Shown: positions 4,198-17,159 of the stretch, one piece after another
How the letters are laid out: every line of letters starts with the position of its first letter
How positions within the stretch are numbered: position 1 is the stretch's first letter
Assembly (NCBI GenBank): GCA_938008015.1
Contig: CALLMA010000109.1
Coordinates: 1-35,772 of the forward strand
Length of the DNA: 35,772 bases
Source of the DNA: an uncultured Celeribacter sp.
GTDB taxonomy: Bacteria > Pseudomonadota > Alphaproteobacteria > Rhodobacterales > Rhodobacteraceae
Direction of reading: 5' to 3'
Translations under genes and position numbers: made by a program
The notes under the pieces: generated by a model
Told to the model about the DNA's origin: nothing
Databases searched by the model: none
What the model saw: the letters and a program-made list of their open reading frames with translations, nothing else

Positions 4198-4902
4198 TTA
4201 CCTGAATTTGATTGGCACTTTAAAAGTAAACTCTTTTAAGTCTAAATTTTGTGGTGCGGGAGGGAAATCAATTTGCTTCAGTCGTGCAATTATAGCTGCA
4301 TTAAAGGTTTTATTTGCTGTTGATTGTGTGATCGCAATCTGGCGTTTTTTTCCTGATTTCGTGAGTGTGATTTCAAGTGTTGTGCTGGCATTTTGCCTGA
4401 TTTTCGATAAGTTTTTAAACACTGTATTCCGTATTTCTTGGCCCCATGTTGCGACCATTTTCTGGCGTTCACTTTTGGTGAGGGTTGCGGCAGATGGGCG
4501 CTGACCTTGATGTTTTTGGGGAGATATTTTCTTGGGTGTTGGCACGGCGGCGCGAATGGGCGCAGGCGCGCGCACTTCAGAGGCGGGCGCCTTTAATGAA
4601 GGCTGCATCTTGTGCAGCGTTGTTTGATAACGCCCTGTTTGATCCGGGCCTGTTATAGAATTTTGCACTGTGTTTTGCGTTTCAGGCTTCAGGCTATCTG
4701 CCGGTGTATATGCGCTAAATCTTGGGGCGACCCAAGTATCAACGAGGCTTTTTAAGTCCTTTTGCGCTGATGAGATTGATATGGTTTCAAGGCTATGAGA
4801 TGTCGCAATCTTTGCAGGTTTTGACGGCAAAGATATCCAAGCGGCGGCATGCAAAAGCGTGGCCAGTATCATAAAGCTGCTAAAGACTAAAACGTTCTTC
4901 AT
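4198..4902 (-). CDS. tonB: Energy transducer TonB
   Basis: A 234-residue protein with TonB architecture: one N-terminal membrane anchor (about residues 3-25, VLVFSSFMILATLLHAAAWI), a periplasmic spacer rich in Pro, Ala, Lys and Gln (about 60-140, including APAPIRAAVPTPKK), and a C-terminal TonB-type domain (about 150-234) ending LKEFTFKVPIKFR. It would carry proton-motive energy from the ExbB/ExbD motor to the outer-membrane receptor encoded at the start of the same operon. A GTG at 4908 overlaps the preceding exbD stop by four bases (GTGA) and is an alternative start; the ATG at 4902 was preferred. It is the last gene of the operon and is followed by the convergent hairpin. The C-terminal domain is a diverged version, so the call leans partly on the neighbours. 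Confidence 0.82.
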   Translation of the reverse strand: MKNVLVFSSFMILATLLHAAAWISLPSKPAKIATSHSLETISISSAQKDLKSLVDTWVAPRFSAYTPADSLKPETQNTVQNSITGPDQTGRYQTTLHKMQPSLKAPASEVRAPAPIRAAVPTPKKISPQKHQGQRPSAATLTKSERQKMVATWGQEIRNTVFKNLSKIRQNASTTLEITLTKSGKKRQIAITQSTANKTFNAAIIARLKQIDFPPAPQNLDLKEFTFKVPIKFR

Positions 4903-4904
4903 GC

Positions 4905-5294
4905 TCACTGCACGATCAATTCAATGTTTGAAAAGCCAATATTTTCGAGCCGTTCAATATCTTGCGTGAGTGTTTGTGCAGATAGCTGGGCATCTGCATA
5001 GAGATGCAGGATCTGCATGCTTGGTTCAGAAATTTGAGACAAGTTTTCCCATGCGCGGCTTGCGCTTGTGTCCTGAAATGTGACTTGGCCCGCTTGTGTG
5101 ATATATACTTTATATTCAGTTGCTTGGGCTTTTTGCCCTGCGGAGGTTGGCACGATGAAGCCTTGCGGTAGGGGGTGCGAAAAAGAGGCGCTGAGTAAGA
5201 AGAAGATCAATAATAAGAACACCACATTTATCATGGGCAAAATTTGCTCTGGTGCGCGTTTGCTGCTTTGCTGAGAAAAATCCATTTTTTTCAT
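4905..5294 (-). CDS. exbD: ExbD/TolR-like protein, second copy, with Asn in place of the key Asp
   Basis: A 129-residue ExbD/TolR-type protein: short cytoplasmic N-terminus, one membrane span (PMINVVFLLLIFFLLSASF, about residues 20-38) and a periplasmic domain ending NIELIVQ. In ExbD the span carries one conserved Asp (Asp25 of Escherichia coli ExbD) needed for proton use. Here the matching residue is Asn23, codon at 5226-5228, inside PMINVV, whereas the neighbouring exbD copy keeps PMIDVV. This copy probably cannot relay protons alone and may form a mixed ExbD pair. The open frame continues upstream to 5318, but the ATG at 5294 lies just beyond the previous stop codon and is the likely start. 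The tonB start follows at once. Confidence 0.85.
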   Translation of the reverse strand: MKKMDFSQQSSKRAPEQILPMINVVFLLLIFFLLSASFSHPLPQGFIVPTSAGQKAQATEYKVYITQAGQVTFQDTSASRAWENLSQISEPSMQILHLYADAQLSAQTLTQDIERLENIGFSNIELIVQ

Positions 5295-5298
5295 ATCG

Positions 5299-5676
5299 TT
5301 ATTGCACCACCACAACATTTGTAAAACCGGCTTGGTTTAACGAAGAGAGCACATCTGCAAGCTTTTGGACTGTTGCCCCTTCTTGCGGCTGTAAAATAAT
5401 AGTGTCGGTTTTATCTCGTGTTAGGAGCTCGAGATCTGAGGGCAATTTCATAAAGGTGGTTGGTGTGCCGTTGATTTTTATCTGTTCGGCAAAAATAGTA
5501 ATCAGGCGCGGCGGGCCTTGATATATTCCAGCATGACCAGCGCCGCCAATTTGGATTGCTGTATCTTTATTGAGCTTTGTGCTGAGCATAAAAAACACCA
5601 ACAATAAAAATACCACATCAATCATAGGCGTGAGGCTGATTTTCTTTCTTCTTTTATGAGGTGAGAGGCTAAGCAT
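5299..5676 (-). CDS. exbD: Biopolymer transport protein ExbD (first copy)
   Basis: A 125-residue ExbD with a basic cytoplasmic N-terminus (HKRRKK), one membrane span holding the canonical LTPMIDVVFLLLVFFML with the essential Asp at residue 20, and a periplasmic domain ending in a hydrophobic strand (GFTNVVVVQ). With ExbB it forms the proton-driven motor of the inner membrane that energises TonB. The open frame reaches up to 5772, but that part lies inside exbB in another frame; the ATG at 5676 comes seven bases after the exbB stop and leaves the normal short N-terminus. It is followed closely by a second exbD that lacks the Asp. Confidence 0.9.
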   Translation of the reverse strand: MLSLSPHKRRKKISLTPMIDVVFLLLVFFMLSTKLNKDTAIQIGGAGHAGIYQGPPRLITIFAEQIKINGTPTTFMKLPSDLELLTRDKTDTIILQPQEGATVQKLADVLSSLNQAGFTNVVVVQ

Positions 5677-5683
5677 CTTGGGC

Positions 5684-6313
5684 TCAATCGCTTTGGGGCA
5701 GATTGGATTGTGCAAATATTTTGGCGGCCACATCTTCCATCTCGGCTTGGAGGCGCTCTGCGATTGCTTCAAACCATGTCAGAGCGATGGAGCTAAAAAT
5801 GGCAACGAACATGCCCGCGGCCGTGGTTAAAAGCGCTTCCCATATTCCGCCGGCTAGGATGGATGGATCGGCTTGAGTGCTTTCAATTTGCAAAGCTTGA
5901 AACGCGGATATCATTCCAAGGACTGTTCCAAATAAGCCAATTAAGGGAGAAATATTGGCGATAAGTTCGAGGGGGCGCAAACCTATACGCACATCGAAGA
6001 GCATATTCTTTGCAACGCGTGTGGTTTCCTCACGGGCAGTTTGATCGCTGTAGTGCGGACTGTGAAGCGTTTGTTTTGCAGTATATGCAAGCTTCCCAGT
6101 CATGCTCATGTTTTTTTCTATCTCTGGGTCGGGGTATTCGCTTAAAGAGATTGCGACGTCGTTAGCATTTTGTTGGATTTTGAAAGCTTTGAGGCCAAAT
6201 AAGTGGACAATTTTCCACATGATGATGCTCAATGCGAATATGGATAATATTCCAATAACCCACAGAGCAGGGCCGCCTCGGTTTGCAAACTCGGTTAATC
6301 CTTGCCAATCCAT
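5684..6313 (-). CDS. exbB: ExbB/TolQ/MotA-type proton channel protein
   Basis: A 209-residue inner-membrane protein with the three-span layout of ExbB/TolQ. The first span is near residues 14-36 (ALWVIGILSIFALSIIMWKIV), a long cytoplasmic loop follows, and two C-terminal spans carry the family signature (LIANISPLIGLFGTVLGMIS and ALLTTAAGMFVAIFSSIAL). It should be the pentameric proton channel that works with the two downstream ExbD proteins and TonB. The chosen ATG at 6313 shares one base with the stop of the upstream ATPase gene (TAATG), implying translational coupling; the longer frame up to 6367 would overlap that gene with no added homology. Its place inside a B12-riboswitch operon suggests it is dedicated to cobalamin uptake. 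Confidence 0.92.
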   Translation of the reverse strand: MDWQGLTEFANRGGPALWVIGILSIFALSIIMWKIVHLFGLKAFKIQQNANDVAISLSEYPDPEIEKNMSMTGKLAYTAKQTLHSPHYSDQTAREETTRVAKNMLFDVRIGLRPLELIANISPLIGLFGTVLGMISAFQALQIESTQADPSILAGGIWEALLTTAAGMFVAIFSSIALTWFEAIAERLQAEMEDVAAKIFAQSNLPQSD

Positions 6314-7065
6314 TATATCACTTCCATAGGCTGAAAAATATGCCCTTCGGATGTGTGCTTTTGCCAAGCGCGCACCTGAAAGACGTTTTTTAAATTTTGT
6401 TCTGTTAGCACGTCACTCGGGGCGCCTATGCTGACCATTTTACCCTCCCCAAGCACAATTAAGCGGGTGCAATACCGCGCGGCTAAGCTTAGATCATGCA
6501 AAGATAATACAATGGCTTTGCCTTTTTGCGCGAGGGTGGCGAAAAGGCGCATCGTTGAGATTTGTTGCGCTGGATCTAGCCCTGCGATCGGTTCATCCGC
6601 GAGTAAGAGCGGCGTGTCCTGAGCCAAGGCGCGCGCAAGCAGCACTCGGGCTTTTTCGCCGCCTGATAATTGCGTTGCTGGGCGATCTTTAAGTGGTAAA
6701 AGATGAAGGTCTTTAAGGGCTTGGGTTACTTTTTGATCAGGCTTATGGGGCGCTTTTCCGAAATATTGACGATGCGGCATCGTGCCGAGAGCGACAAGTT
6801 TTTCGACAGAAATAGGCCAGGCAATTTCTCTTTCTTGCGGCATCCATGCTGCGATTTTGGCGCGCTCTTTTGTTGGAAGTTGGCTTATATTGCACTGGCC
6901 GCTATGCTCAACGAGCCCTAAAATACTGCGCATTAATGTCGTTTTTCCAACGCCATTTGGCCCAATAATTCCAACAAGTTCCCCTGTGCTCACTGAAAAA
7001 GAAATGTCAGATAACAGCATGCTCTTTTGGCGGTGGATTGACAGGTTGTGAACCTCTAAAATCAT
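6313..7065 (-). CDS. btuD: Cobalamin ABC transporter ATP-binding protein
   Basis: A 250-residue ABC ATPase of the BtuD/FecE/HmuV class. Seen: Walker A GPNGVGKTT (residues 35-43), a Q-loop Gln near 77 (WMPQERE), signature LSGGE (133-137), Walker B LLLADEP (153-159) and the switch His190 (LSLHD). It powers the BtuC permease at the cytoplasmic face. The start overlaps the btuC stop by four bases (ATGA at 7062-7065), and the stop overlaps the exbB start. By sequence alone an iron-siderophore or haem importer could look the same; the cobalamin riboswitch at the head of the operon decides the substrate. Confidence 0.92.
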   Translation of the reverse strand: MILEVHNLSIHRQKSMLLSDISFSVSTGELVGIIGPNGVGKTTLMRSILGLVEHSGQCNISQLPTKERAKIAAWMPQEREIAWPISVEKLVALGTMPHRQYFGKAPHKPDQKVTQALKDLHLLPLKDRPATQLSGGEKARVLLARALAQDTPLLLADEPIAGLDPAQQISTMRLFATLAQKGKAIVLSLHDLSLAARYCTRLIVLGEGKMVSIGAPSDVLTEQNLKNVFQVRAWQKHTSEGHIFQPMEVI

Positions 7066-8042
7066 GATGCCTGCCCCTTTCGCAATTTTACAATGAGATG
7101 AAGAAAGAGCGGTGCGCCAAGAAGGGCTGTAATCACGCCAAGTTTTAAATCCTTGGTCGGAAAAACAACTCTTATGAATATATCAGCAGATAAGAGCAAT
7201 GCAGCGCCTCCTAAGGCTGAGATGGGAAGGAGCTGTGAAGGTTGCGCTTTCACAAGGGGTCTTAAAATATGCGGGACAACCAAGCCGACAAAGCCGATCG
7301 CGCCTGCAATTGCAGTGGATGCGCCTACGATACAAGCCGTGCCAAATATGATCACGAGGCGCAAGTTATGCATGTTTATGCCAAGGCTATGGGCGGCGTC
7401 TTCGCCGAGGGTGAGTGCATCGAGGGCGTTTTTGCTTTTTAAGAGCAAGAAGGCCCCGAGGGCTAAAAATGGCAAGATGAGCCAAAAATCTTGCATTGAA
7501 CGATCGGCAACGGATCCCATCATCCAAAAGATAACTTCATATACAGCAAATGGATTTGGAGAGAGGTTTAGCACTAAAGTTAAAAGCGCCCCCGAAAAGG
7601 CCGAGACGGCGACACCGGCTAAAATCAATGTGAGGGAAGAGGCGGTTGGGCCTGAGAGGCGCAACACAATGAAGACGCCGATGGCAGCCGCCAGTAAGGC
7701 AGATAAGGGCAATGCAAATGCAAAGCTGGCGGCAAATCCAGTTTGCAAAGCTATAATAGCGCCTAAGGCTGCAGTGGAAGAAATGCCGATTATCCCAGGC
7801 TCCGCTAAGGGATTGCGCAAATAACATTGCATGGCGGCGCCTGATAGGCCGAGGCCTGCGCCTATGAGTGCTGCTAAAAGCGCACGCGGCAATCTTATCT
7901 CATACATGATTAAAGTAAGCATACCTTGATCGCTGAAGATTGCGACAAGGCTGTCTGAAATTGGGAGATGTGCTGGCCCAATGAAGAGCGATATGACAAA
8001 AAGTGTGCAAACGAGCGTTGTTAAGAACAATTTAATTGTCAT
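7062..8042 (-). CDS. btuC: Cobalamin ABC transporter permease (FecCD family)
   Basis: A 326-residue polytopic inner-membrane protein of the FecCD/BtuC family, expected to have ten spans and to work as a dimer. Typical segments are RLPRALLAALIGAGLGLSGA near the N-terminus, NPLAEPGIIGISSTAALGA, and IGFVGLVVPHILRPL in the cytoplasmic coupling region that contacts the ATPase. The open frame begins at 8096, but two adjacent ATG codons at 8045 and 8042 follow a GGAG. The ATG at 8042 has the better spacing and overlaps the end of btuF by 11 bases. It is translationally coupled to btuD through an ATGA overlap. Confidence 0.92.
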   Translation of the reverse strand: MTIKLFLTTLVCTLFVISLFIGPAHLPISDSLVAIFSDQGMLTLIMYEIRLPRALLAALIGAGLGLSGAAMQCYLRNPLAEPGIIGISSTAALGAIIALQTGFAASFAFALPLSALLAAAIGVFIVLRLSGPTASSLTLILAGVAVSAFSGALLTLVLNLSPNPFAVYEVIFWMMGSVADRSMQDFWLILPFLALGAFLLLKSKNALDALTLGEDAAHSLGINMHNLRLVIIFGTACIVGASTAIAGAIGFVGLVVPHILRPLVKAQPSQLLPISALGGAALLLSADIFIRVVFPTKDLKLGVITALLGAPLFLHLIVKLRKGQAS

Positions 8043-8859
8043 CATAGGCTCCCAGCATAATATTTTTAGCGGCGCGCAAAACATAAGGTGTGCCACAGAC
8101 CCAATCTTGGTCTTGTAGGTGCTGTTGCTGATGCGTGTCGGATTGCAGCGCTTTGATGATGGGATGTGCTAATATGGCTTCCGCTTGGGAATGCGCGGGG
8201 TAGCGTGAGGAGGTTATCAATACATCGGGGCGGTTTATCGCCAAGATTTCAAGGGGCACTTTCCCTCCCCATGCATATCCCGCTTCAAGTGCGGCATTGT
8301 GGTATCTGGCCGCTTCAAGGATTTCATGTGCCAAAGTGTTTTGGCCAGAGGTGTAGCCATTTGCGGCGTAGATCATCGCACTTACTTGTGTGGAAGGGCG
8401 AGTGTTCAAATCATCTAGCTGAGCGTCAAAATCGGCTATGAGCTGTGCAGCCGTGTCTTCTTGAGCTAGGGCAGCCCCCATTTGTGCGATGCGCGCTTTT
8501 ACATCGCTAAAGGATTGGGAGGGAGCAAAAGCTTCAACCTTAATGCCTAAACGCTTTAACATATTCAATAAAGCCGGATTTGAGTATTCACTGGCGAAGA
8601 CTAAATCAGGCTGCATCATATAGATTTCTTCAGCGAAGCCATAGTTGAGTTCATAATTCTGCGCCTCAATGGCCATGGGGGAAACCAATGGATCGAAGGC
8701 CACATGAGAGACCGCAAAAAGCTGAGTGGGCTGGGCAAGCATCATCGCCAATTGGTCCGTACAGAGGTTGATTGACACAACGCGTTGCGGTGTATTCTCC
8801 ATCGAAAATACACCGTATGGGACAAGCATTCCAATGAGAAAGGCGATGATGCGGCGCAT
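8032..8859 (-). CDS. btuF: Periplasmic cobalamin-binding protein
   Basis: A 275-residue periplasmic substrate-binding protein of the helical-backbone (TroA/BtuF) class. A signal peptide spans about residues 1-20 (basic MRR, then a hydrophobic stretch); no lipobox Cys is seen, so it is probably free in the periplasm. The mature start RVVSINLCTDQLAMMLA is typical of alphaproteobacterial B12 and iron binding proteins, and the two lobes are joined by a helical region around residues 130-150. It delivers cobalamin from the BtuB side to BtuC. Its ATG follows the btuB stop directly (TAAATG), and its end overlaps btuC. Confidence 0.88.
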   Translation of the reverse strand: MRRIIAFLIGMLVPYGVFSMENTPQRVVSINLCTDQLAMMLAQPTQLFAVSHVAFDPLVSPMAIEAQNYELNYGFAEEIYMMQPDLVFASEYSNPALLNMLKRLGIKVEAFAPSQSFSDVKARIAQMGAALAQEDTAAQLIADFDAQLDDLNTRPSTQVSAMIYAANGYTSGQNTLAHEILEAARYHNAALEAGYAWGGKVPLEILAINRPDVLITSSRYPAHSQAEAILAHPIIKALQSDTHQQQHLQDQDWVCGTPYVLRAAKNIMLGAYDDN

Positions 8860-10788
8860 TTAGAACTCCGTTGAAATGCCAAGAAATGCGGTGCGTCCTT
8901 GGCTCGCGTAACCTTGTGCTTCTTGATAGCTTTCATCAAATACATTGTGGATATGCGCTTGGAGTTTTACGCTCTCATTAAATTGGTGGATGAGCCCAAA
9001 TCCGACAGTTGTAAAATCCTTTTGCTCATATGCGTCAAACCCGAAAGAGGGCGCTGTAAAGTCCACCAAAGTTAATCCCGAGACATATCTCACATCCGTG
9101 CTGATTTGAGTTTTATTGTTCGGCAATTGATACTTGAGACTGACCGATAAGTCATCACTCGAACGTCTGGCTTCTTTGCTGCCATTCGGATTCGTTGCGT
9201 TGAGCCATGTATAATTCAATCCAAAATTTATAGCCTGCGTTAAAGGCAGATTGGCTGAAATTTCAACGCCTTCGCGCTTGCTCTCGCCTTGGGCATTATA
9301 GGGCGTGTTTGTCACAAAATCAGGAACGATCTCTTTGGTAAGATTTTGGCGGAAATACGTGATGTCAAACAATCCTGTCCCGTCCCAGAATTGGTGCTCT
9401 AAGCCTATATCCCAGCTTTTGCTTTGCTCCGGCTCTAAATCTGGATTTCCTTTAAAGTTTGAAAAGAAGCCAAATTGCTCAATCAGTGTCGGGTTTTGAA
9501 CAGCGGTTCCCAAGGAGGCATGAAGGCGCGTTGTTTCATTAGAAAATTGGTAAGATGTGCCTAAAGAATATGTCCAAAAATCTTTGAAGGATGTATTTCT
9601 ATCATATCTCACGCTTGCTTGCAGATGCAGGTCTTCTTTGAGTTCGCCTTGGTATTCAACAATAGCGGCCCGTTGAATGCGCGTGCGGTCTTCTAATTGG
9701 CCAGGGTTAAAAACAATTGCAGGATCATTCTCTTTGTAGCTCTCTTTTTCCCATTCAACGGCGCCTGTGATGATGTGATTTGCGAAGGCGATTGGCTGAT
9801 CATCGAGTGCATAAGTGCTTTTGAAGAAATACTTTTCGCGAGAACCACTTGTATCCCCATTTTTGGCATTCACCGTGGCGTATGATTGGAGGTCATTCTC
9901 GCCATAAGAGAGATCAAGGCGCGAAAGAAGGCGCCCATTCAATGCTTCGGTTTCGACAAAAAGAGACGCGAAAAGTTCTTGCGTCTCCGTGAGTTCTAAT
10001 GAGTTTGTCACTAAATCTTGATTGCGCGCGGCACCAAAATTGAATTGATCACTCTGTGTGCTGCGATCCGTATAACGCAATGTGCCGCCAAGCGTTAGAT
10101 TGTCGCTGAGATTATACTCCCCTTTCAGATTATAGCTTTGGTTTTCTTCTCCATCTAGCTCACCCTTGTCGCCCGATGCATCAAAGCCGTTATTGCTTAA
10201 GCGAGAAAATGCGAGGCGCAGATTTCCCTTATCGCCCTTTAGCCCAAGAGAGGCATTGAAACCCGCTGTGCCATCCGTGCCAAAAGTTAAGCCACTATCG
10301 CCTGAAAATCCGCTTTTTGTGACTTGCTTCGTCGTGATCGAGATCACCCCGCCCACGGCATTTGATCCATAAAGCGAAGATTGCGCGCCGCGTAACACTT
10401 CGACTTTTTCAATATCGGATGCCAAAAGCGCGCCAAAATCATAAGCCCCACTTGCCGTCGCAGAAACTTCAACGCCGTCAATTAAAACTAAGGTATGATT
10501 GCTTTCGTTGCCTCTCAAACGAATTTCCGTCAAAGAGCCTGTTGAACCGCTGCGTGTTACGGCAATGCCTGGAACCGCGCGCAGGGCCTGCGCCAAATGG
10601 GTCTCACCGTTTTTGGAGATATCCTCTTCTTCAATGACTGTGATAGATCGCCCAGATTCAACATATTCAAGAGGGGTTAACCCACTTGAAATGATAATCT
10701 CATCTAAGGCGAAATAAGTTTCCTGTGCGCTTATCGGCTGTGTCAAAAGTGCTGTGCTGGCCAGCAACCATTTTATTTGTTTCTTCAT
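8860..10788 (-). CDS. btuB: TonB-dependent vitamin B12 receptor
   Basis: A 642-residue outer-membrane receptor, close to the usual BtuB length. Seen in order: signal peptide (residues 1-21, ending ISA), a TonB box-like segment at about 29-34 (DEIIIS), a plug domain (about 45-150, including LAQALRAVPGIAVTRSG, VLIDGVEV and VEVLRGAQSSLYGSNAVGGV), then a 22-strand-type barrel with alternating hydrophobic strands and a final strand ending in Phe (TAFLGISTEF), as needed for barrel assembly. It is the first gene after the cobalamin riboswitch, which strongly favours cobalamin or a related corrinoid as substrate. The operon continues without gaps into btuF. Confidence 0.93.
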   Translation of the reverse strand: MKKQIKWLLASTALLTQPISAQETYFALDEIIISSGLTPLEYVESGRSITVIEEEDISKNGETHLAQALRAVPGIAVTRSGSTGSLTEIRLRGNESNHTLVLIDGVEVSATASGAYDFGALLASDIEKVEVLRGAQSSLYGSNAVGGVISITTKQVTKSGFSGDSGLTFGTDGTAGFNASLGLKGDKGNLRLAFSRLSNNGFDASGDKGELDGEENQSYNLKGEYNLSDNLTLGGTLRYTDRSTQSDQFNFGAARNQDLVTNSLELTETQELFASLFVETEALNGRLLSRLDLSYGENDLQSYATVNAKNGDTSGSREKYFFKSTYALDDQPIAFANHIITGAVEWEKESYKENDPAIVFNPGQLEDRTRIQRAAIVEYQGELKEDLHLQASVRYDRNTSFKDFWTYSLGTSYQFSNETTRLHASLGTAVQNPTLIEQFGFFSNFKGNPDLEPEQSKSWDIGLEHQFWDGTGLFDITYFRQNLTKEIVPDFVTNTPYNAQGESKREGVEISANLPLTQAINFGLNYTWLNATNPNGSKEARRSSDDLSVSLKYQLPNNKTQISTDVRYVSGLTLVDFTAPSFGFDAYEQKDFTTVGFGLIHQFNESVKLQAHIHNVFDESYQEAQGYASQGRTAFLGISTEF

Positions 10789-10914: not shown

Positions 10915-11085
10915 AGACAGGGTGATCACTTCGGCAGGTCTCCTGACTTGCGGGTCGATGTTCGGTTGGGCCTTCCCATTGTTTCTGAACAACAGTGGCA
11001 TAATCCAACGTCACTTTCCGCTTACAGTTGCGAGGGCAGTCACGGATTTGAATGTCGCACCGTGTTCCCTATTATCCAAGCTACA
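10915..11085 (-). promoter_or_regulatory. Cobalamin (adenosylcobalamin) riboswitch
   Basis: The minus strand carries the conserved core of the cobalamin riboswitch in order: GGGAACACGGTG near 11070-11059, CCGTGACTGCCCTCGCAACTG to GTAAGCGG near 11045-11017, TGCCACTGTTG near 10999, GGGAAGG, then the B12 box AGTCAGGAGACCTGCC near 10948-10932 followed by GAAGTGATCACCCTG. This aptamer binds adenosylcobalamin (or a related form) in the transcript and normally shuts expression when B12 is plentiful. It lies about 130 bases before the btuB start, so the whole btuB to tonB operon should be repressed by B12. Limits are approximate because peripheral stems were not folded. Confidence 0.95.
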
Positions 11086-11112
11086 TGTAGCCCAGACCGA
11101 AGCTAAAGTTTT

Positions 11113-11118
11113 ATTATA
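11113..11118 (-). promoter_or_regulatory. Likely -10 element of the B12 uptake operon
   Basis: A perfect TATAAT on the minus strand lies about 30 bases upstream of the first conserved riboswitch block, placing a start of transcription near 11106 just before the aptamer. A matching -35 at the right distance is poor, so the call rests on the -10 and on position. Confidence 0.5.
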
Positions 11119-11526: not shown

Positions 11527-11835
11527 CTATTCTGGATCATCTTTCGGCTTCCAAACGGGAATCTTCAAGCTCAGCGCTGCTCGACCAATCATATGGGCTC
11601 CAATCGGGGCGGTCAGTAGTAGAAAGCCGATGATCAAAATACAGCGCAGTACAATCCCTGGATCGCCAAAGTACACCGCAGCACCTGCCATGGTCAGACC
11701 AGATCCTAGCGTACCCACCTTCGTTGCCGCATGCATTCGCGTAAACAGATCTGGCAAACGCAAAATACCTACGCCCGCAGCAAAGGTCATAATACTACCC
11801 ATAAGAATTAGAACTGAAGCGATGATATCAGTCAT
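11527..11835 (-). CDS. mrpG: Na+/H+ antiporter subunit MrpG (MnhG)
   Basis: A 102-residue membrane protein with three hydrophobic segments, matching MrpG/PhaG. It starts MTDIIASVLILMGSIMTFAAG, followed by the characteristic GILRLPDLFTRMHAATKVGTLG, which is typical of the family. MrpG is one of the small subunits of the multi-subunit Na+/H+ antiporter. The open frame extends to 11883, but the ATG at 11835 overlaps the mrpF stop by eight bases and gives the usual length. It is the last gene of the operon. Confidence 0.9.
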   Translation of the reverse strand: MTDIIASVLILMGSIMTFAAGVGILRLPDLFTRMHAATKVGTLGSGLTMAGAAVYFGDPGIVLRCILIIGFLLLTAPIGAHMIGRAALSLKIPVWKPKDDPE

Positions 11836-12130
11836 TCTTTGCCTCCTCAGCTTGCTGGCGACGAATAACTGCCCGCTCTGCAAATCGAGCTAAAGCGACC
11901 GTGGCCAAAAAACCCACCAGTGCCAGCACCAGCGCCACATCCAGAAATGCCACATCGCCAGACCAAATCGCCGCAAGTCCACAAAAGGCAACAATAGAGA
12001 CCGTCATTTTATCGAGGGCGACCACCCGATCCGGCATTGTCGGCCCGAGTATCAAGCGCAAAACGGCAAGTCCAACACCCAAAAAAACCAGCGCAAGTGA
12101 CATGATCAAGGTTATCAATGCTAAGCTCAT
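11828..12130 (-). CDS. mrpF: Na+/H+ antiporter subunit MrpF (MnhF)
   Basis: A 100-residue protein with three predicted membrane spans. The segment LRLILGPTMPDRVVALD is diagnostic of MrpF/PhaF, and the conserved acidic residue in ALD lies at the membrane border. It overlaps mrpE by four bases (ATGA at 12127-12130), so the two are translationally coupled. The charged tail RRQQAEEAKND is cytoplasmic by the positive-inside rule. It is a required subunit of the Mrp complex in known systems. Confidence 0.92.
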   Translation of the reverse strand: MSLALITLIMSLALVFLGVGLAVLRLILGPTMPDRVVALDKMTVSIVAFCGLAAIWSGDVAFLDVALVLALVGFLATVALARFAERAVIRRQQAEEAKND

Positions 12131-12615
12131 GCGGTGTCTCCTTCTACGGCATCAATCACCCAACGCTCAATCCCGCCTTTGATCTGTTTGCATACCGCAT
12201 CCGGATCATCTGCGAACATCACGTGCAATTTCAGTGTCTGACGATCATCACTGACATCAATACTCAAAGTGCCAGGTGTCAGTGAAATCAGGTTGGTCAC
12301 AAGCAAAATGCCAGCGTCGGTTTTTACATCCAGTGGCATTTCGATAATCGCAGGGTTCGATAAATGGCGCGGCGTGAAAATATCCCATAGCACTTGAAGG
12401 CTCGACGCCAACAATTCATAGTGGAACATCACAATCAACCTGAGCCAATACCAAACCCTTTTGAAATAGCTCGATGATGCGCCCTTAAGCGGTTGCAAAA
12501 GCCACAAGATCGCGTAGCCTACAGCAAGGCCAGATAGCACCGTCAGCCAAGTAAAACCGCCGAAAAATAGCGCCCAGACGATAGCCAATACAATATTTGA
12601 TACAAGCGTATTCAT
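12127..12615 (-). CDS. mrpE: Na+/H+ antiporter subunit MrpE (MnhE)
   Basis: A 162-residue protein with two or three N-terminal membrane spans (about residues 7-42 and 57-80) and a soluble C-terminal part. The stretch TNLISLTPGTLSIDVSDD is the hallmark of MrpE/PhaE (TPGT with a following acidic strand). It overlaps mrpD and mrpF by four bases each. In studied bacteria MrpE supports complex stability and activity rather than forming the main ion path. Length is normal. Confidence 0.92.
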   Translation of the reverse strand: MNTLVSNIVLAIVWALFFGGFTWLTVLSGLAVGYAILWLLQPLKGASSSYFKRVWYWLRLIVMFHYELLASSLQVLWDIFTPRHLSNPAIIEMPLDVKTDAGILLVTNLISLTPGTLSIDVSDDRQTLKLHVMFADDPDAVCKQIKGGIERWVIDAVEGDTA

Positions 12616-14111
12616 GCGCCTTCTCCTAAAACGGCGGCCATATAATCACTTGGATCCAGCAGTTGCGCGGCGGCCATTTCAGCAAATGCCACGAAAGTCT
12701 GCGGGAAGAAGCCGATCACCAAAGTCAGCATCGCAAGTGCAGCGATTGGCAAAAGAAATGCCCACCGCCGCGCCGGGTCGATCGCTTCCAGAACAGGATC
12801 CACTCCCTCAGGATGTGGTTTCCAGAAGGCTTCCGCCCAGATTTTTGTCATTGAGAAGATGGTCAGCAGCCCAACCAGCAAAGCGACTGCAGCGATCACC
12901 CAAGCGTTGTCTTCAAGTGCCGCCGAGACCAGCACGTATTTTGCCCAAAATCCAGACAACGGCGGAAAGCCCGCCAGCGAAAATGCCGGGATGAAAAACA
13001 ACACCGCAAGCAGCGGCGCCGTCTTGTACAGCCCGCCTATCTTTGCAAGTTCCGTGGAACCCGCCGTTCGTTCAATCACCCCAGTGATCAAGAGCAGGTT
13101 CGCCTTTACGATGATGTGGTGCACCAAATAGAACACAGCGCCGACCATGGCGAGCGGAGTAAGCAGCGCAAGGCCCATGATCATATACCCGATCTGGCTG
13201 ACGATATGAAACGACAGGATCTTGCGAATATCATTGTGCGCCGCGGCCCCCAAAACGCCGGTGATCATCGTTAGCGCTGCAACCCACAACAAGATGGTAT
13301 GTGTGAAGTCAGTATCCGCGTTAAAAACTAGCGTGAACATGCGGATCAGGGCATAGACCCCAACTTTGGTCAACAGCCCCGCAAACACTGCCGAAACGGC
13401 GAAAGCTGGCGTGTGATATGATGCGGGCAGCCAGAAGAACAGCGGGAACACCGCCGCCTTAACCCCAAAAGCAACCATGAACATCACCGCAATCACGGTA
13501 ACCAGCCCTTGGTTTTCGAGCTCAGGCAAGCTGCGCGCGATATCGGCCATATTCAGCGTGCCGGTCATCCCGTAGAGCAAGCCGATCCCAGACAAGAACA
13601 AAATGGTCGAGATGAGATTCAGCGTCACATAGCGCACGCCCCCGTCAACCTGCTCCTTGGTCCCGCCCAATACCAACAGTCCGAAGGAGGAAATCAACAT
13701 GACCTCAAACCAAACATAAAGGTTAAACAAATCTCCAGTAAGGAAGGATCCCGCCACCCCGCCGATCAACACATTGAAAAGCGCGTGATATCCCAGATGC
13801 TCTTTCCGATCATTGATGTCACCCAGCGCATAAACGGATACGGCAAGCGCCGTGATCGCCGTAATCACCACCATGACTGCACTCAGGTAGTCAGCGACCA
13901 GCGTAATACCAAAAGGTGCGGCCCAGCCGCCCATCTGCCCCGCAATCACGCCCTGATCGAGCACTTTGGCCATCAACATGCTTGCCGCAAGCAACATCGC
14001 CACGTTGCCAATAACAGATATCCACCGACCCGCGGGGCCAAAGCGGGTCAGGAAGGCAAAGACCGCCGTCAAAAAGGGCAGAACCAGAGGAACTGTAAGA
14101 TACCAACTCAT
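12612..14111 (-). CDS. mrpD: Na+/H+ antiporter subunit MrpD (MnhD)
   Basis: A 499-residue polytopic protein of the NuoM/NuoN/MrpD antiporter-like family, about 14 spans. Key features are visible: LYVWFEVMLISSFGLLVLGG with the conserved membrane Glu, and FGVKAAVFPLFFWLPASYHT followed by FAGLLTKVGVYALIRMF with the conserved Lys residues of the proton path. It is one of the two large ion-translocating subunits. It overlaps mrpC and mrpE by four bases (ATGA). GC content is clearly higher than in the glycosyltransferase island. Confidence 0.95.
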   Translation of the reverse strand: MSWYLTVPLVLPFLTAVFAFLTRFGPAGRWISVIGNVAMLLAASMLMAKVLDQGVIAGQMGGWAAPFGITLVADYLSAVMVVITAITALAVSVYALGDINDRKEHLGYHALFNVLIGGVAGSFLTGDLFNLYVWFEVMLISSFGLLVLGGTKEQVDGGVRYVTLNLISTILFLSGIGLLYGMTGTLNMADIARSLPELENQGLVTVIAVMFMVAFGVKAAVFPLFFWLPASYHTPAFAVSAVFAGLLTKVGVYALIRMFTLVFNADTDFTHTILLWVAALTMITGVLGAAAHNDIRKILSFHIVSQIGYMIMGLALLTPLAMVGAVFYLVHHIIVKANLLLITGVIERTAGSTELAKIGGLYKTAPLLAVLFFIPAFSLAGFPPLSGFWAKYVLVSAALEDNAWVIAAVALLVGLLTIFSMTKIWAEAFWKPHPEGVDPVLEAIDPARRWAFLLPIAALAMLTLVIGFFPQTFVAFAEMAAAQLLDPSDYMAAVLGEGA

Positions 14112-14473
14112 GTCTTGCCACCTTCACGCGGTTCTGCCACGCGCATTTCATCTGAATAGAGTGTTCCAAGGCTGCTGTAGGCGCGGAACATCAGCACCAG
14201 CGCAAAAGCGAACAGCCCAAATCCGATTACAATTGCCGTTAAAACCAGTGCTTGCGGCAGCGCATTCGCCACATCGCCCACAGGCGCATCCGCCCCTACT
14301 GGGATCAACGGCGGCGCGCCTACCGTCACGCGGCCCGAGACAAAAATCGTCAGGTTCGCCGCGTTGGAAAACAGAACAAGGCCAAAGATAAAGCGCAAAA
14401 TATTGCGCGCCAGCATCAGGTAGACCGCCGTGGCCACCAAAACGCCAATAGTCAGAGCAAGAAGCGCTTCCAT
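14108..14473 (-). CDS. mrpC: Na+/H+ antiporter subunit MrpC (MnhC)
   Basis: A 121-residue three-span membrane protein homologous to NuoK. It begins MEALLALTIGVLVATAVYLM, has FIFGLVLFSNAANLTIF in the second span and ALVLTAIVIGFGLFAFALVL in the third. The start shares one base with the mrpB stop (TGATG), and the end overlaps mrpD by four bases. MrpC is a core subunit next to MrpD in the complex. Confidence 0.93.
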   Translation of the reverse strand: MEALLALTIGVLVATAVYLMLARNILRFIFGLVLFSNAANLTIFVSGRVTVGAPPLIPVGADAPVGDVANALPQALVLTAIVIGFGLFAFALVLMFRAYSSLGTLYSDEMRVAEPREGGKT

Positions 14474-14892
14474 CAGATTTCCTCTTCCATGGCGAAAACG
14501 ATACTTAAGATCGATCCGAATACGACCAGATAGACCCCAATATCAAAGATAAGAACGGTAGAAATCGGCAGGCCTTTGCTGTCTTCAGTCGGGTTGAGGA
14601 ACAGCCATTGCCCGGTGAAAAGCGCATCGCCAAAGAGAGCTGCAGCGATTCCGGCAAGCAGCGCAATGCCTAACCCTGCGACCGCAATATTTTGCGGCAT
14701 GATCTTAAGCGCCGCGCGCGCTTCGGCAGTCCCGCAAGCGATGGCATATAGAACAAAGCTGGTTGAACCGATCAATCCGCCAATAAAACCGCCCCCCGGC
14801 TCGTTGTGGCCGCGGATGAGCATATAGAGCGAAAAAAGCACAAGAATGCCGGCCAAATAGCGGGTGCCGACCCGAAGGATGATCGAATTCAT
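14473..14892 (-). CDS. mrpB: Na+/H+ antiporter subunit MrpB (MnhB)
   Basis: A 139-residue protein with four predicted spans and the family signature RGHNEPGGGFIGGLIGSTSF near residues 27-46. The separate mrpB gene, rather than a fusion to mrpA, marks this as a seven-gene group 1 operon. It overlaps the mrpA stop by four bases (ATGA at 14889-14892). The last residues (VFAMEEEI) are acidic. Confidence 0.93.
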   Translation of the reverse strand: MNSIILRVGTRYLAGILVLFSLYMLIRGHNEPGGGFIGGLIGSTSFVLYAIACGTAEARAALKIMPQNIAVAGLGIALLAGIAAALFGDALFTGQWLFLNPTEDSKGLPISTVLIFDIGVYLVVFGSILSIVFAMEEEI

Positions 14893-17159
14893 GGGTCCTT
14901 CCTTTCAGATGTGGTGCGTAACAAGGCATAGGCGGACAGTGCCGCGATCACAACCACCGCGATCTCGCCAAAGGTATCCAGCGCTCGGAAATCCACGAGG
15001 ATGACGTTGACAATGTTGCGACCAAAGGCCTCTGGCCAGCTTGTGACCTCAAAATATTCCGTCAAGCGCAAGTCGATCGGCGTCTCCAAAACGGCAAGAA
15101 GTACGAGCGTGAAAACGCCCCCCACCCCAAGCGCCAACACCGCATCAGCAGGTCGATGATCGCGACCGCCTTGATCCAAAAGTGGCAACCGCAGCAAAGC
15201 TACCGCCACCAACACGACGACAAGCGTCTCAACAAGAAGCTGAGTGATGGCCACGTCTGGAGCGCTGAAAACGATAAACACCATCGCCACGCCAATACCA
15301 ACGACGCCAAGGGCCGCCATCGCCGCGACTCGCGAGCTGGTTAACGCAGCCATAATCGCTCCAACGCTGATGAGCAGTGAGATTGCAATGATCGGCCATG
15401 TTACATCCTGAAAATCAGGCAGCCCTGGCCAAGCGTTCCGCGCGATGATCGTCCCGCCGATTGCAACCAAAGCAGTCGCGAAGGTGACCCCGATATAAAC
15501 GCGCAAGATACCCGGCTGAATAATCCGTGTTTGCCATGCGGCAAAGCCCTTGAGCCCAGCTAGAAAACGGTCCCAACCCCGGTCAAAATTGGGGGCAGCC
15601 GCCACGACCCTGCCAAGCCAAGCCCGAAGGCCGCGATGACCAATATAAAGAGCGGCGCCTAAAGTCACCGTCACGATGGATAGGATCAATGGCATATTCA
15701 CTCCCGCCCACAACTTCAGTTCCTTCGCTTCATCTATAGAGCCGAGAAGAGAGGCGACCAATGGATCCACGAGCGCGAATTGCAGCGGATCAGGATGGAT
15801 CCCGAAGAAAACCCCAAGACAAGCCAATACGACAGGTCCTAGCAGCATGGTCCAAGGCACCTCTTTCGGGGAGCGCGGAAGTTCTACTTCGCGTCTGCCC
15901 CAGAACGGGCGCAGCGCAACGATCCCCGCCACTGCAAACATCAATGCGTTAGAGAGCAAAAGCGCAACAGTGAAAACGAACGGCTGTGAACCGATGGCAA
16001 GAATGCCCGCGTATTGTAATTCTTTTCCGATAAAACCCAAAAACGGCGGAAACCCAGCCATTGACAGCGCCGCAAGCGCGGCCGCAAGTGCGCTCACGGG
16101 CATGATCCGGCCCAACCCGCCAAGAATATCGGCATTGCGCGTACCGGCCGAATAATCAACGCAGCCAACCACCAGAAACAGTGACGCTTTATAAAGCGAA
16201 TGTACAATCAAAAAGGTCGCAAAAGCCGTCATCGCATAAGCTGAATCTTGCCCTAGGAATAGCGTCAATGTCCCCAGCGCCATGAGCGTAGTGTAGGCCA
16301 GAGATTGCTTCAAATCGATTTGTCGTAGCGCCAAGACACTCGCAAAAACTGCCGTAAACGCCCCCGCCACGGTTAACGTCCAGAACCAAATGTCAGTGCC
16401 GGACATGGCCGGATGCAGCCGCGCCATCAGATAAATACCCGCCTTCACCATCGTAGCCGAGTGCAAGAAGGCCGACACCGGCGTCGGCGCAGCCATAGCA
16501 TTGGGCAACCAAAAGTGAAACGGAAATTGCGCCGATTTGGTAAAAGCGCCTGCAAGGATCAAGATCAGGATCGGCACGTATAGCTCATGATTGCGCAGCG
16601 CATCACCATTTGCCAAAATTTCGGACAACTCGAAACTGCCCATAGTCGTACCAAGCAAGATAAAGCCCGCCAGCAACGCCAAAGCCCCTGCCCCAGTGAC
16701 AAAAAGCGCCTGCAAGGCAGAGCGGCGGCCCTTCTCGGTCGCATGCGCAAAGCCGATCAGCAGATAAGAGGTAATCGTGGTTAATTCCCAGAACACGAAC
16801 AACGTGATTAGATTATCTGCCAAAATAAGGCCCAGCATCGCAAGCATGAAGCTGGTCAGGAAGAACATAAAGCGGTTAAAATGCTCTTGTCCGGCTAGAT
16901 AGGTGCGCGAATAGAGGAACACCATCGCACCTATTCCACTGATCAACAGCGCGAAGGTTAGGCTTAGCCCGTCCAACATGAACGACATGGAAATACCCAG
17001 AGACGGCACCCAATCCCAAACATATCGGATCGCGCCCCCTTCGGCGATCGTGTTCGCTTGAGTGATAAGCCAAGCAAACAGAGCTGCCGACAAAGCGACA
17101 GGAATCAAGCCGATGAGGCCGTTGTCCCTGTTCTCAGAAGTCTCAATATTTCTCGCCAT
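14889..17159 (-). CDS. mrpA: Na+/H+ antiporter subunit MrpA (MnhA)
   Basis: A 756-residue polytopic protein, the largest Mrp subunit and homologous to NuoL. Seen: FMLDGLSLTFALLISGIGAM and FLYSRTYLAG in the early spans, LFVFWELTTITSYLLIGFAH with the conserved Glu, and FTKSAQFPFHFWLPNAMAAP leading to LHSATMVKAGIYLMARL with conserved Lys and His residues. The C-terminal part (about 600-756) has the MbhD/MbhE-like domain with APDVAITQLLVETLVVVLV and ALDTFGEIAVVVIAALSAY. With the other six subunits it exchanges cytoplasmic Na+ for external H+, useful in the sea and at high pH. The ATG at 17159 is preceded by GAGG. It lies 50 bases downstream of a possible leader gene. Confidence 0.95.
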   Translation of the reverse strand: MARNIETSENRDNGLIGLIPVALSAALFAWLITQANTIAEGGAIRYVWDWVPSLGISMSFMLDGLSLTFALLISGIGAMVFLYSRTYLAGQEHFNRFMFFLTSFMLAMLGLILADNLITLFVFWELTTITSYLLIGFAHATEKGRRSALQALFVTGAGALALLAGFILLGTTMGSFELSEILANGDALRNHELYVPILILILAGAFTKSAQFPFHFWLPNAMAAPTPVSAFLHSATMVKAGIYLMARLHPAMSGTDIWFWTLTVAGAFTAVFASVLALRQIDLKQSLAYTTLMALGTLTLFLGQDSAYAMTAFATFLIVHSLYKASLFLVVGCVDYSAGTRNADILGGLGRIMPVSALAAALAALSMAGFPPFLGFIGKELQYAGILAIGSQPFVFTVALLLSNALMFAVAGIVALRPFWGRREVELPRSPKEVPWTMLLGPVVLACLGVFFGIHPDPLQFALVDPLVASLLGSIDEAKELKLWAGVNMPLILSIVTVTLGAALYIGHRGLRAWLGRVVAAAPNFDRGWDRFLAGLKGFAAWQTRIIQPGILRVYIGVTFATALVAIGGTIIARNAWPGLPDFQDVTWPIIAISLLISVGAIMAALTSSRVAAMAALGVVGIGVAMVFIVFSAPDVAITQLLVETLVVVLVAVALLRLPLLDQGGRDHRPADAVLALGVGGVFTLVLLAVLETPIDLRLTEYFEVTSWPEAFGRNIVNVILVDFRALDTFGEIAVVVIAALSAYALLRTTSERKDP

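Follow-up and report, generated by a model that had tools for sequence, protein, structure and literature searches.

The stretch of DNA analysed here (the window, 35,772 nucleotides from an uncultured Celeribacter sp., contig CALLMA010000109.1) carries the genes exbB-exbD1-exbD2-tonB on its minus strand, at the end of a btuBFCD operon that lies under a cobalamin riboswitch (Table 1). The gene set of a Ton motor was found in the window, comprising an ExbB with its Thr ring, ExbD, TonB and the receptor encoded by btuB. The btuD stop and the exbB start overlap in the sequence TAATG, the GTG start of tonB overlaps the stop of exbD2, and an inner ATG at 5285 is a second possible start of exbD2. The window tonB encodes a His within the N-terminal hydrophobic stretch of the protein. 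Copy 1 of the ExbD pair (exbD1) reads SLTPMIDVVFLLLVFFML with the motif PMIDVV, and copy 2 (exbD2) reads ILPMINVVFLLLIFFLL with the motif PMINVV. The earlier note had described this tandem pair with its two motifs and had placed the Asn codon at 5226-5228; the pair was confirmed on the minus strand, with the codon at that place.

Table 1. Features of the operon, in positions of the window.
Feature	Position	Strand	Evidence and remarks
Cobalamin riboswitch, upstream of btuB	10916..11116	-	Rfam RF00174, 127.7 bits, E 5.3e-32, full length
btuB, TonB-dependent receptor	8860..10788	-	PF00593 and PF07715
btuF-like, periplasmic binding protein	8032..8859	-	PF01497, E 4.6e-18
btuC, FecCD permease	7062..8096	-	PF01032, E 2.6e-85
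btuD, ABC ATPase	6313..7065	-	PF00005, E 9e-27
exbB	5684..6313	-	PF01618, E 2e-26; both proton-path Thr kept, GGIW Trp present
exbD1, Asp copy	5299..5676	-	PF02472, 64.0 bits; Asp codon GAT 5619-5617
exbD2, Asn copy	4905..5294	-	PF02472, 53.3 bits; Asn codon AAT 5228-5226
tonB	4198..4908	-	PF13103, PF03544, TIGR01352

The operon combines a Ton motor with a full gene set for B12 import and can be described as a minimal natural Ton system. Judging from these genes and the riboswitch, we infer that the motor drives vitamin B12 import via BtuB. The draft genome to which the window belongs (2.0 Mb in 137 contigs, 86% complete) contains three matches to PF02472, namely exbD1, exbD2 and one gene on another contig. 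The latter was taken as TolR because it adjoins its own gene of the MotA/TolQ/ExbB family. The plug domain PF07715 gave one match in the same genome, the window btuB. Neither another Ton motor nor a second TonB-dependent receptor was found in this 86% of the genome, and these absences are not final since the draft is incomplete. Elsewhere in the window, an ORF at 930-2090 contains a Hint domain (PF13403, E 3.5e-38), and a minus-strand cluster at 11527-17159 resembles a multi-subunit Mrp-type cation/proton antiporter. Two large ORFs of this cluster match PF00361, and its smaller ORFs are presumably further Mrp-type antiporter subunits.

Both ExbD copies score well above the curated cut-off of PF02472 (ExbD/TolR), which is 25.4 bits. 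With regard to narrower families, both copies fell far below the cut-off of the TolR equivalog of NCBIfam (28.9 bits for copy 1 and 25.1 bits for copy 2, against 127.3). Copy 1 also fell below the cut-offs of the models for ExbD of the E. coli type, TIGR02803 and PRK11267 (29.9 and 30.4 bits, against 152.95 and 216), and copy 2 gave no match to these two models at E 0.01. When the PDB was searched with the copy 2 sequence by itself, only a weak match resulted (E 0.74), so that a profile of Asn copies was needed. A profile built from 30 Asn copies aligned the Asn with the Asp of the motif PFIDVM in solved ExbD chains; this Asp corresponds to Asp25 of E. coli K-12 ExbD. The structural models of both copies matched the periplasmic domains of E. 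coli ExbD. In Foldseek searches ExbD periplasmic domains were the top matches for the copy 2 model (E 3.3e-4 and 1.1e-3; target TM 0.58 and 0.75), and one was also the top match for the copy 1 model (E 1.6e-6; target TM 0.89). The periplasmic ExbD fold is in other words predicted for both copies, and the membrane-span Asp of proton-conducting ExbD is present in copy 1, with Asn in its place in copy 2.

To what extent the order Asp-then-Asn is constant was determined in several sets of loci. At the level of the order, loci were sampled with an ExbB query, which is blind to ExbD (30 listed loci and 60 chosen from the listed places), and all 90 loci, every one of them among the stronger ExbB matches, contained Asp-Asn. 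ExbB matches with E <=1e-20 were found in 203 of the 292 genomes of the order, the weakest of them possibly being TolQ. That all 90 of these loci, found by a query blind to ExbD, have the Asp-Asn pair shows that it is not a matter of chance. A search of relatives with ExbD2 as query gave Asp-Asn in 30 of 30 loci among the matches listed, and a class-level search with a profile of Asn copies gave the same result, 30 of 30 among the matches listed; one locus in each set is the window itself. Named genomes were retrieved with a pattern, P[ML]IN[VI]VFLL, that requires Asn but leaves the partner free. Of at least 558 confirmed loci in this set, 80 were kept; 79 of the 80 had an upstream partner, and the partner had Asp in all 79. 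Forty further hand-picked regions of lower rank at the class level comprised 41 groups: 27 Asp-Asn, 7 Asp-Asp, 5 single Asp, 1 Asp-Ser and 1 lone Asn, the last (L144) lacking its partner because the contig ends there. Of the seven Asp-Asp pairs, six are of another motif type (e.g. LTPMLDVVFIMLIFFIVTA) and are unlike the window pair in having Asp in both copies; the seventh (L164) belongs to the genome G136 discussed below. The phylum search yielded 48 loci, of which 25 were Asp-Asn (one being the window), 2 Asp-Asp (L190 and L204) and 21 single Asp, and it placed the pair in four genomes outside the Alphaproteobacteria (L185, L194, L197 and L203). Within the Alphaproteobacteria, the pair is present beyond the order as well. 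One record, titled Nocardioides marinus (L113), contains a Ton operon of Rhodobacteraceae type and is probably a contaminated or mislabelled assembly.

The relatives, class and phylum sets share some genomes, and the total of 282 Asp-Asn groups obtained from all loci taken together includes genomes fetched more than once; the same total set contained 28 single Asp, 9 Asp-Asp, 2 lone Asn and 1 Asp-Ser. The remaining ExbD/TolR genes, 28 single ones and 12 from other tandem pairs, had Asp throughout. Asp and Asn are consequently not distributed at random among the homologues, an outcome that the earlier note had named as refuting its reading: in the loci of this family that were examined, Asn was present in nearly all second copies and Asp in all first copies, and the retention of Asn in alphaproteobacterial second copies, which the note had left to be aligned and counted, was complete among the ExbB-anchored loci of the order. 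It should be mentioned that a regular expression for the motif overlooked diverged copies (L027, L029 and L032) and was replaced by a profile with motif positions, and that the tandem-pair counts were taken from the sets above and not from the class-wide family search, which covered the best-scoring places only. An apparent Asn-Asp order in L106 and L158 turned out to be an artefact of ordering by ORF start, as the motif positions put Asp first. That the Asn reflects a pseudogene or an assembly error was ruled out by its conservation.

A few second copies deviate. Two genomes, G136 (L164 and L204) and G640 (L190), have Asp, and a third, G353 (L151), has Ser. These exceptions show that the second-copy Asn is not strictly obligatory. 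Moreover, Pseudotabrizicola sediminis has a lone chimeric exbD after ExbB (L086:8899-9399), in which an N-terminus like that of copy 1 is fused to a copy 2 body with Asn; this is the only locus without a partner in the named-genome set. The chimera is either the product of a natural recombination in which the Asp copy was lost, or an error of the assembly, and since it lacks a local Asp copy it would be a dead motor if such a copy is needed.

Ancestry was examined in two trees built with the Asp/Asn column removed. In the tree of 125 rows, a branch with support 25 set apart the 48 Asn copies together with the three exceptions, and another with support 77 set apart the 48 Asp partners together with three more sequences. 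In the tree of 45 rows, its 13 Asn copies formed a clade with L190 (Asp) and L151 (Ser) with support 94/93. The second copy of G136 fell outside this clade, beside two single-Asp genes (59/80), and the whole second-copy group was separated from the rest by a branch in 34% of the bootstrap trees. The deep branches of both trees are weak. As the Asn copies group with L190 and L151 inside one clade, the Asn would most simply have arisen once, followed by one return to Asp (L190) and one change to Ser (L151). The Asp of L190, nested among Asn copies, is likely such a return, and the pair of G136 (L164) may have retained the older Asp-Asp state.

The surroundings of the pair were examined in the 79 named pair loci, for which up to 9 kb was fetched on each side, sometimes cut by contig ends. 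ExbB was found no more than 1.2 kb upstream of the pair in 78 loci and TonB no more than 2.2 kb downstream of it in 76, and a His was located in or near the predicted membrane span of TonB in 70 of 77 cases. The earlier note had viewed the pair as part of btu operons. This holds for the window, but the context of the pair is wider: of the 79 loci, 46 include a FecCD-type permease, 44 a BtuF-like protein and 40 a detected TonB-dependent receptor. Similar proteins were also found on 18 plasmid records from Leisingera, Phaeobacter and Tritonibacter; the two plasmid loci that were examined, one from Leisingera and one from Phaeobacter, were both Asp-Asn. Plasmid pP72_b of Phaeobacter inhibens carries such a pair (L327).

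Apart from the key position, the two copies differ in other conserved features. These were compared in distinct sequences of copy 1 (n=255), copy 2 (n=254) and, as a small and mixed control set, single ExbD/TolR (n=27), with the numbering of E. coli K-12 ExbD; Asp25 (255/255) and Asn25 (254/254) are fixed by how the classes were made. An acidic residue located between positions -9 and -6 relative to the key position was present in 238/254 of copy 2 and 27/27 of the single proteins, but in only 10/255 of copy 1. The same distribution was seen for Pro50 (208/254, 27/27 and 36/255, respectively) and Asp107 (249/254, 25/27 and 28/255). The opposite was the case for Thr at position -4, which was present in 247/255 of copy 1 and 25/27 of the single proteins, and in one of the 254 sequences of copy 2. 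Gln113 was found in 247/255 of copy 1 and 7/27 of the single proteins, and is outside the four commonest residues in copy 2. Few copies of either kind had the complete feature set. In six other tandem pairs, the acid and the Thr were present in 12/12 copies, and Asp107 in 2/6 first and 5/6 second copies. Hence the loss of Asp107 from the first copy is not private to the Asp-Asn family, and Asp107 is, in these alignments, no clean marker of the division. Tyr112, which in Serratia belongs to the interface of the ExbD dimer (PMC10771500), is uncommon in copy 1 and copy 2 alike, a rarity that was given no weight because only 3/27 of the single controls have this residue; a position around residue 47 was left out, since the alignment varied there. 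The mean entropy of the membrane span (residues 22-39) was 0.69 bits for the Asn copy and 0.46 bits for copy 1, and that of the periplasmic domain was about 2.4 bits in both. The span of the Asn copy is thus nearly as conserved as that of copy 1, which fits a place inside a tight pore. From the complementary features we infer that the two copies may now need each other.

The partner ExbB also has a characteristic of its own. ExbB of the Asp-Asn operons had both Thr148 and Thr181 in 186/186 cases (175/175 distinct sequences), and a Trp at E. coli ExbB position 175, six residues before Thr181, equally in 186/186 (175/175 distinct). Beside single ExbD/TolR genes, this Trp was found in 1/26 ExbB (L221), and at Asp-Asp loci in 3/9, namely the same-family oddities L164, L204 and L190; it is also present in the Ser locus L151 and the chimeric locus L086. 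A motif count over the 90 ExbB-anchored loci gave 89 Trp and one Thr. Glu176, an ExbB residue described as essential in E. coli (PMC8599685), is not fixed in the Asp-Asn operons (141/186). Taken together, the division of features between the copies and the ExbB-specific Trp argue for a working heteromeric pair.

We consider it probable that exbB-exbD1-exbD2-tonB encodes a Ton motor with an obligate ExbD heterodimer in an ExbB pentamer (5:1:1) and one titratable Asp; the sequence comparison suggests both the co-assembly of the two ExbD in one pentamer and the use of protons through a single Asp. The constancy of the Asp/Asn pair agrees with a heterodimer whose ExbD1 would do the proton work and whose ExbD2 would be permanently neutral. 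ExbD1 would supply the sole proton-binding Asp of the membrane span, and the Asn of ExbD2 would act as a permanent mimic of the protonated state. ExbD2 would keep the ancestral acid on the cytoplasmic side and the periplasmic Asp107, and serve as structural and periplasmic partner in the pore. The dimer would sit within the ExbB pentamer with the Thr148/Thr181 ring intact; periplasmic protons would load the Asp of ExbD1 and exit to the cytoplasm as this Asp passes each ExbB subunit. With one Asp, a turn would presumably be completed in five proton steps, each of 72 degrees, and not in ten of 36 degrees. In line with the heterodimer, the two Asp are in unequal environments in published structures of ordinary motors (PMC12905483, PMC12965293): in the structures reviewed, one of them contacts the Thr ring and its counterpart is turned to the cytoplasmic cavity, AbTolQR being an exception (PMC12905483). 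A model of the Tol motor has the two Asp swap protonation states at each 36-degree step (PMC12905483). Two ExbD chains have been reported to grip a single TonB segment in unlike ways (PMC10907165), and the two periplasmic domains of the pair could specialise for the single segment gripped. A role of copy 2 as a structural partner only, suggested in the earlier note, is compatible with the data. E. coli ExbD with D25N is described as inactive (PMC11658791), which counts against the heterodimer reading, though every ExbD copy in that case is Asn.

Other readings of the second copy were weighed against this heterodimer. The acid of ExbD2, a Glu/Asp about seven residues before the Asn, might be a relocated one that aids proton exit at the cytoplasmic mouth, giving two titratable sites at different depths, and its frequency in copy 2 and scarcity in copy 1 would agree with this. 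The same acid is, however, present in all single controls and all copies of the other tandem pairs, every one with Asp25, so that it looks ancestral and not like a replacement; in the model of the window ExbD2 it also precedes the predicted helix by five residues, and we regard the proposal as unlikely. It is likewise doubtful that the ExbD1 homodimer is the working motor and ExbD2 a non-conducting competitor or brake that tunes the number of active motors. Reviewed Ton and Tol structures do contain two copies of one ExbD or TolR (PMC12905483), and an Asn mimics a locked protonated state, but a copy 1 homodimer would miss conserved features, as copy 1 has mostly lost the Asp107, N-terminal acid and Pro50 that single-copy ExbD/TolR mostly keep. 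The constant order of the two exbD genes between exbB and tonB, and the fact that the TolR-like gene is the only other PF02472 match in the window's draft genome, also speak against such a competitor.

A position of ExbD2 outside the pore, as a membrane-anchored binder of peptidoglycan or TonB, would be in line with its more canonical periplasmic motif (Asp107 in nearly all of copy 2) and with the match of its predicted structure to ExbD periplasmic domains. This appears highly improbable, since the sequence of a mere anchor should drift and the span of copy 2 is highly conserved, its PMINVVFLLL being aligned with pore-inserted ExbD. That the Asn merely marks the decay of a duplicate can hardly be maintained: GAY and AAY codons differ by a single base, but the comparative data refute drift, with Asn in each of the 90 second copies found blind to ExbD and with two codons in use for it, AAC (61) and AAT (19), among the 80 loci of the named-genome set, where Asn was preselected.

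Compared with known systems, the window shares with the Ton motors of E. coli and Serratia (5 ExbB : 2 ExbD) the ExbB and ExbD families, the Thr148/Thr181 ring, a TonB with a C-terminal TonB domain and a receptor of BtuB type. Ordinary Ton motors have two identical ExbD, each with Asp25, whereas the window has two paralogues and one Asp. Tandem exbD1-exbD2 genes are likewise present in Ton operons of Sphingobium SYK-6 (PMC8599685) and Xanthomonas campestris (PMC3551730). The Sphingobium system differs in that ExbD1, ExbD2 and ExbD3/TolR all have Asp25 (PMC8599685), and exbD2 of X. campestris is reported to be unnecessary for iron uptake (PMC3551730). The gliding motor AglRQS of Myxococcus similarly combines one MotA/ExbB-like protein with two ExbD-like proteins, but AglQ and AglS are both described as having the conserved Asp, and they may form a hetero- or a homodimer (PMC9389320). 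Heterologous pairs of ExbD-like proteins or pore helices beside one tolQ-like gene are also known from the paired tolR-like genes of PVC bacteria and from paired TPH-vWA proteins (PMC12204202); these have other force-transducing partners, and the TPH helices keep Asp, with no Asn named in the part of the paper available (PMC12204202). The heme operon of Ruegeria TM1040 contains exbB, two exbD and tonB, and the accessible text notes a 'duplicate exbD1a' without mention of Asn (PMC5225302); by analogy, this operon is probably the same kind of system as the Asp-Asn pair. In the open-access literature, as far as its text was available, we found tandem exbD genes but no Asp/Asn ExbD pair; most subscription papers and bioRxiv were outside the scope of this search.

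The occurrence of an Asp ExbD with a fixed-Asn ExbD in many alphaproteobacteria points to a natural motor with one working proton site, not two. On balance we are inclined to think that a large lineage of Ton motors consists of obligate 5:1:1 heteromers with a single titratable Asp. If this is true, the alternating two-Asp cycle of 36 degrees that has been proposed for MotAB, ExbBD and TolQR would not be universal in the 5:2 family, and the axle would be built with a fixed asymmetry. How proton flow is turned into motion in 5:2 motors is unsettled, and a natural Asp/Asn motor would be an evolutionary experiment on the two-Asp model. If one Asp works, a motor can do with half of the proton sites, its step size and torque have to be different, and the unequal environments revealed by cryo-EM would represent roles that evolution can separate. 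In addition, the pair would provide two axle chains open to independent labelling and mutation, which a homodimer does not.
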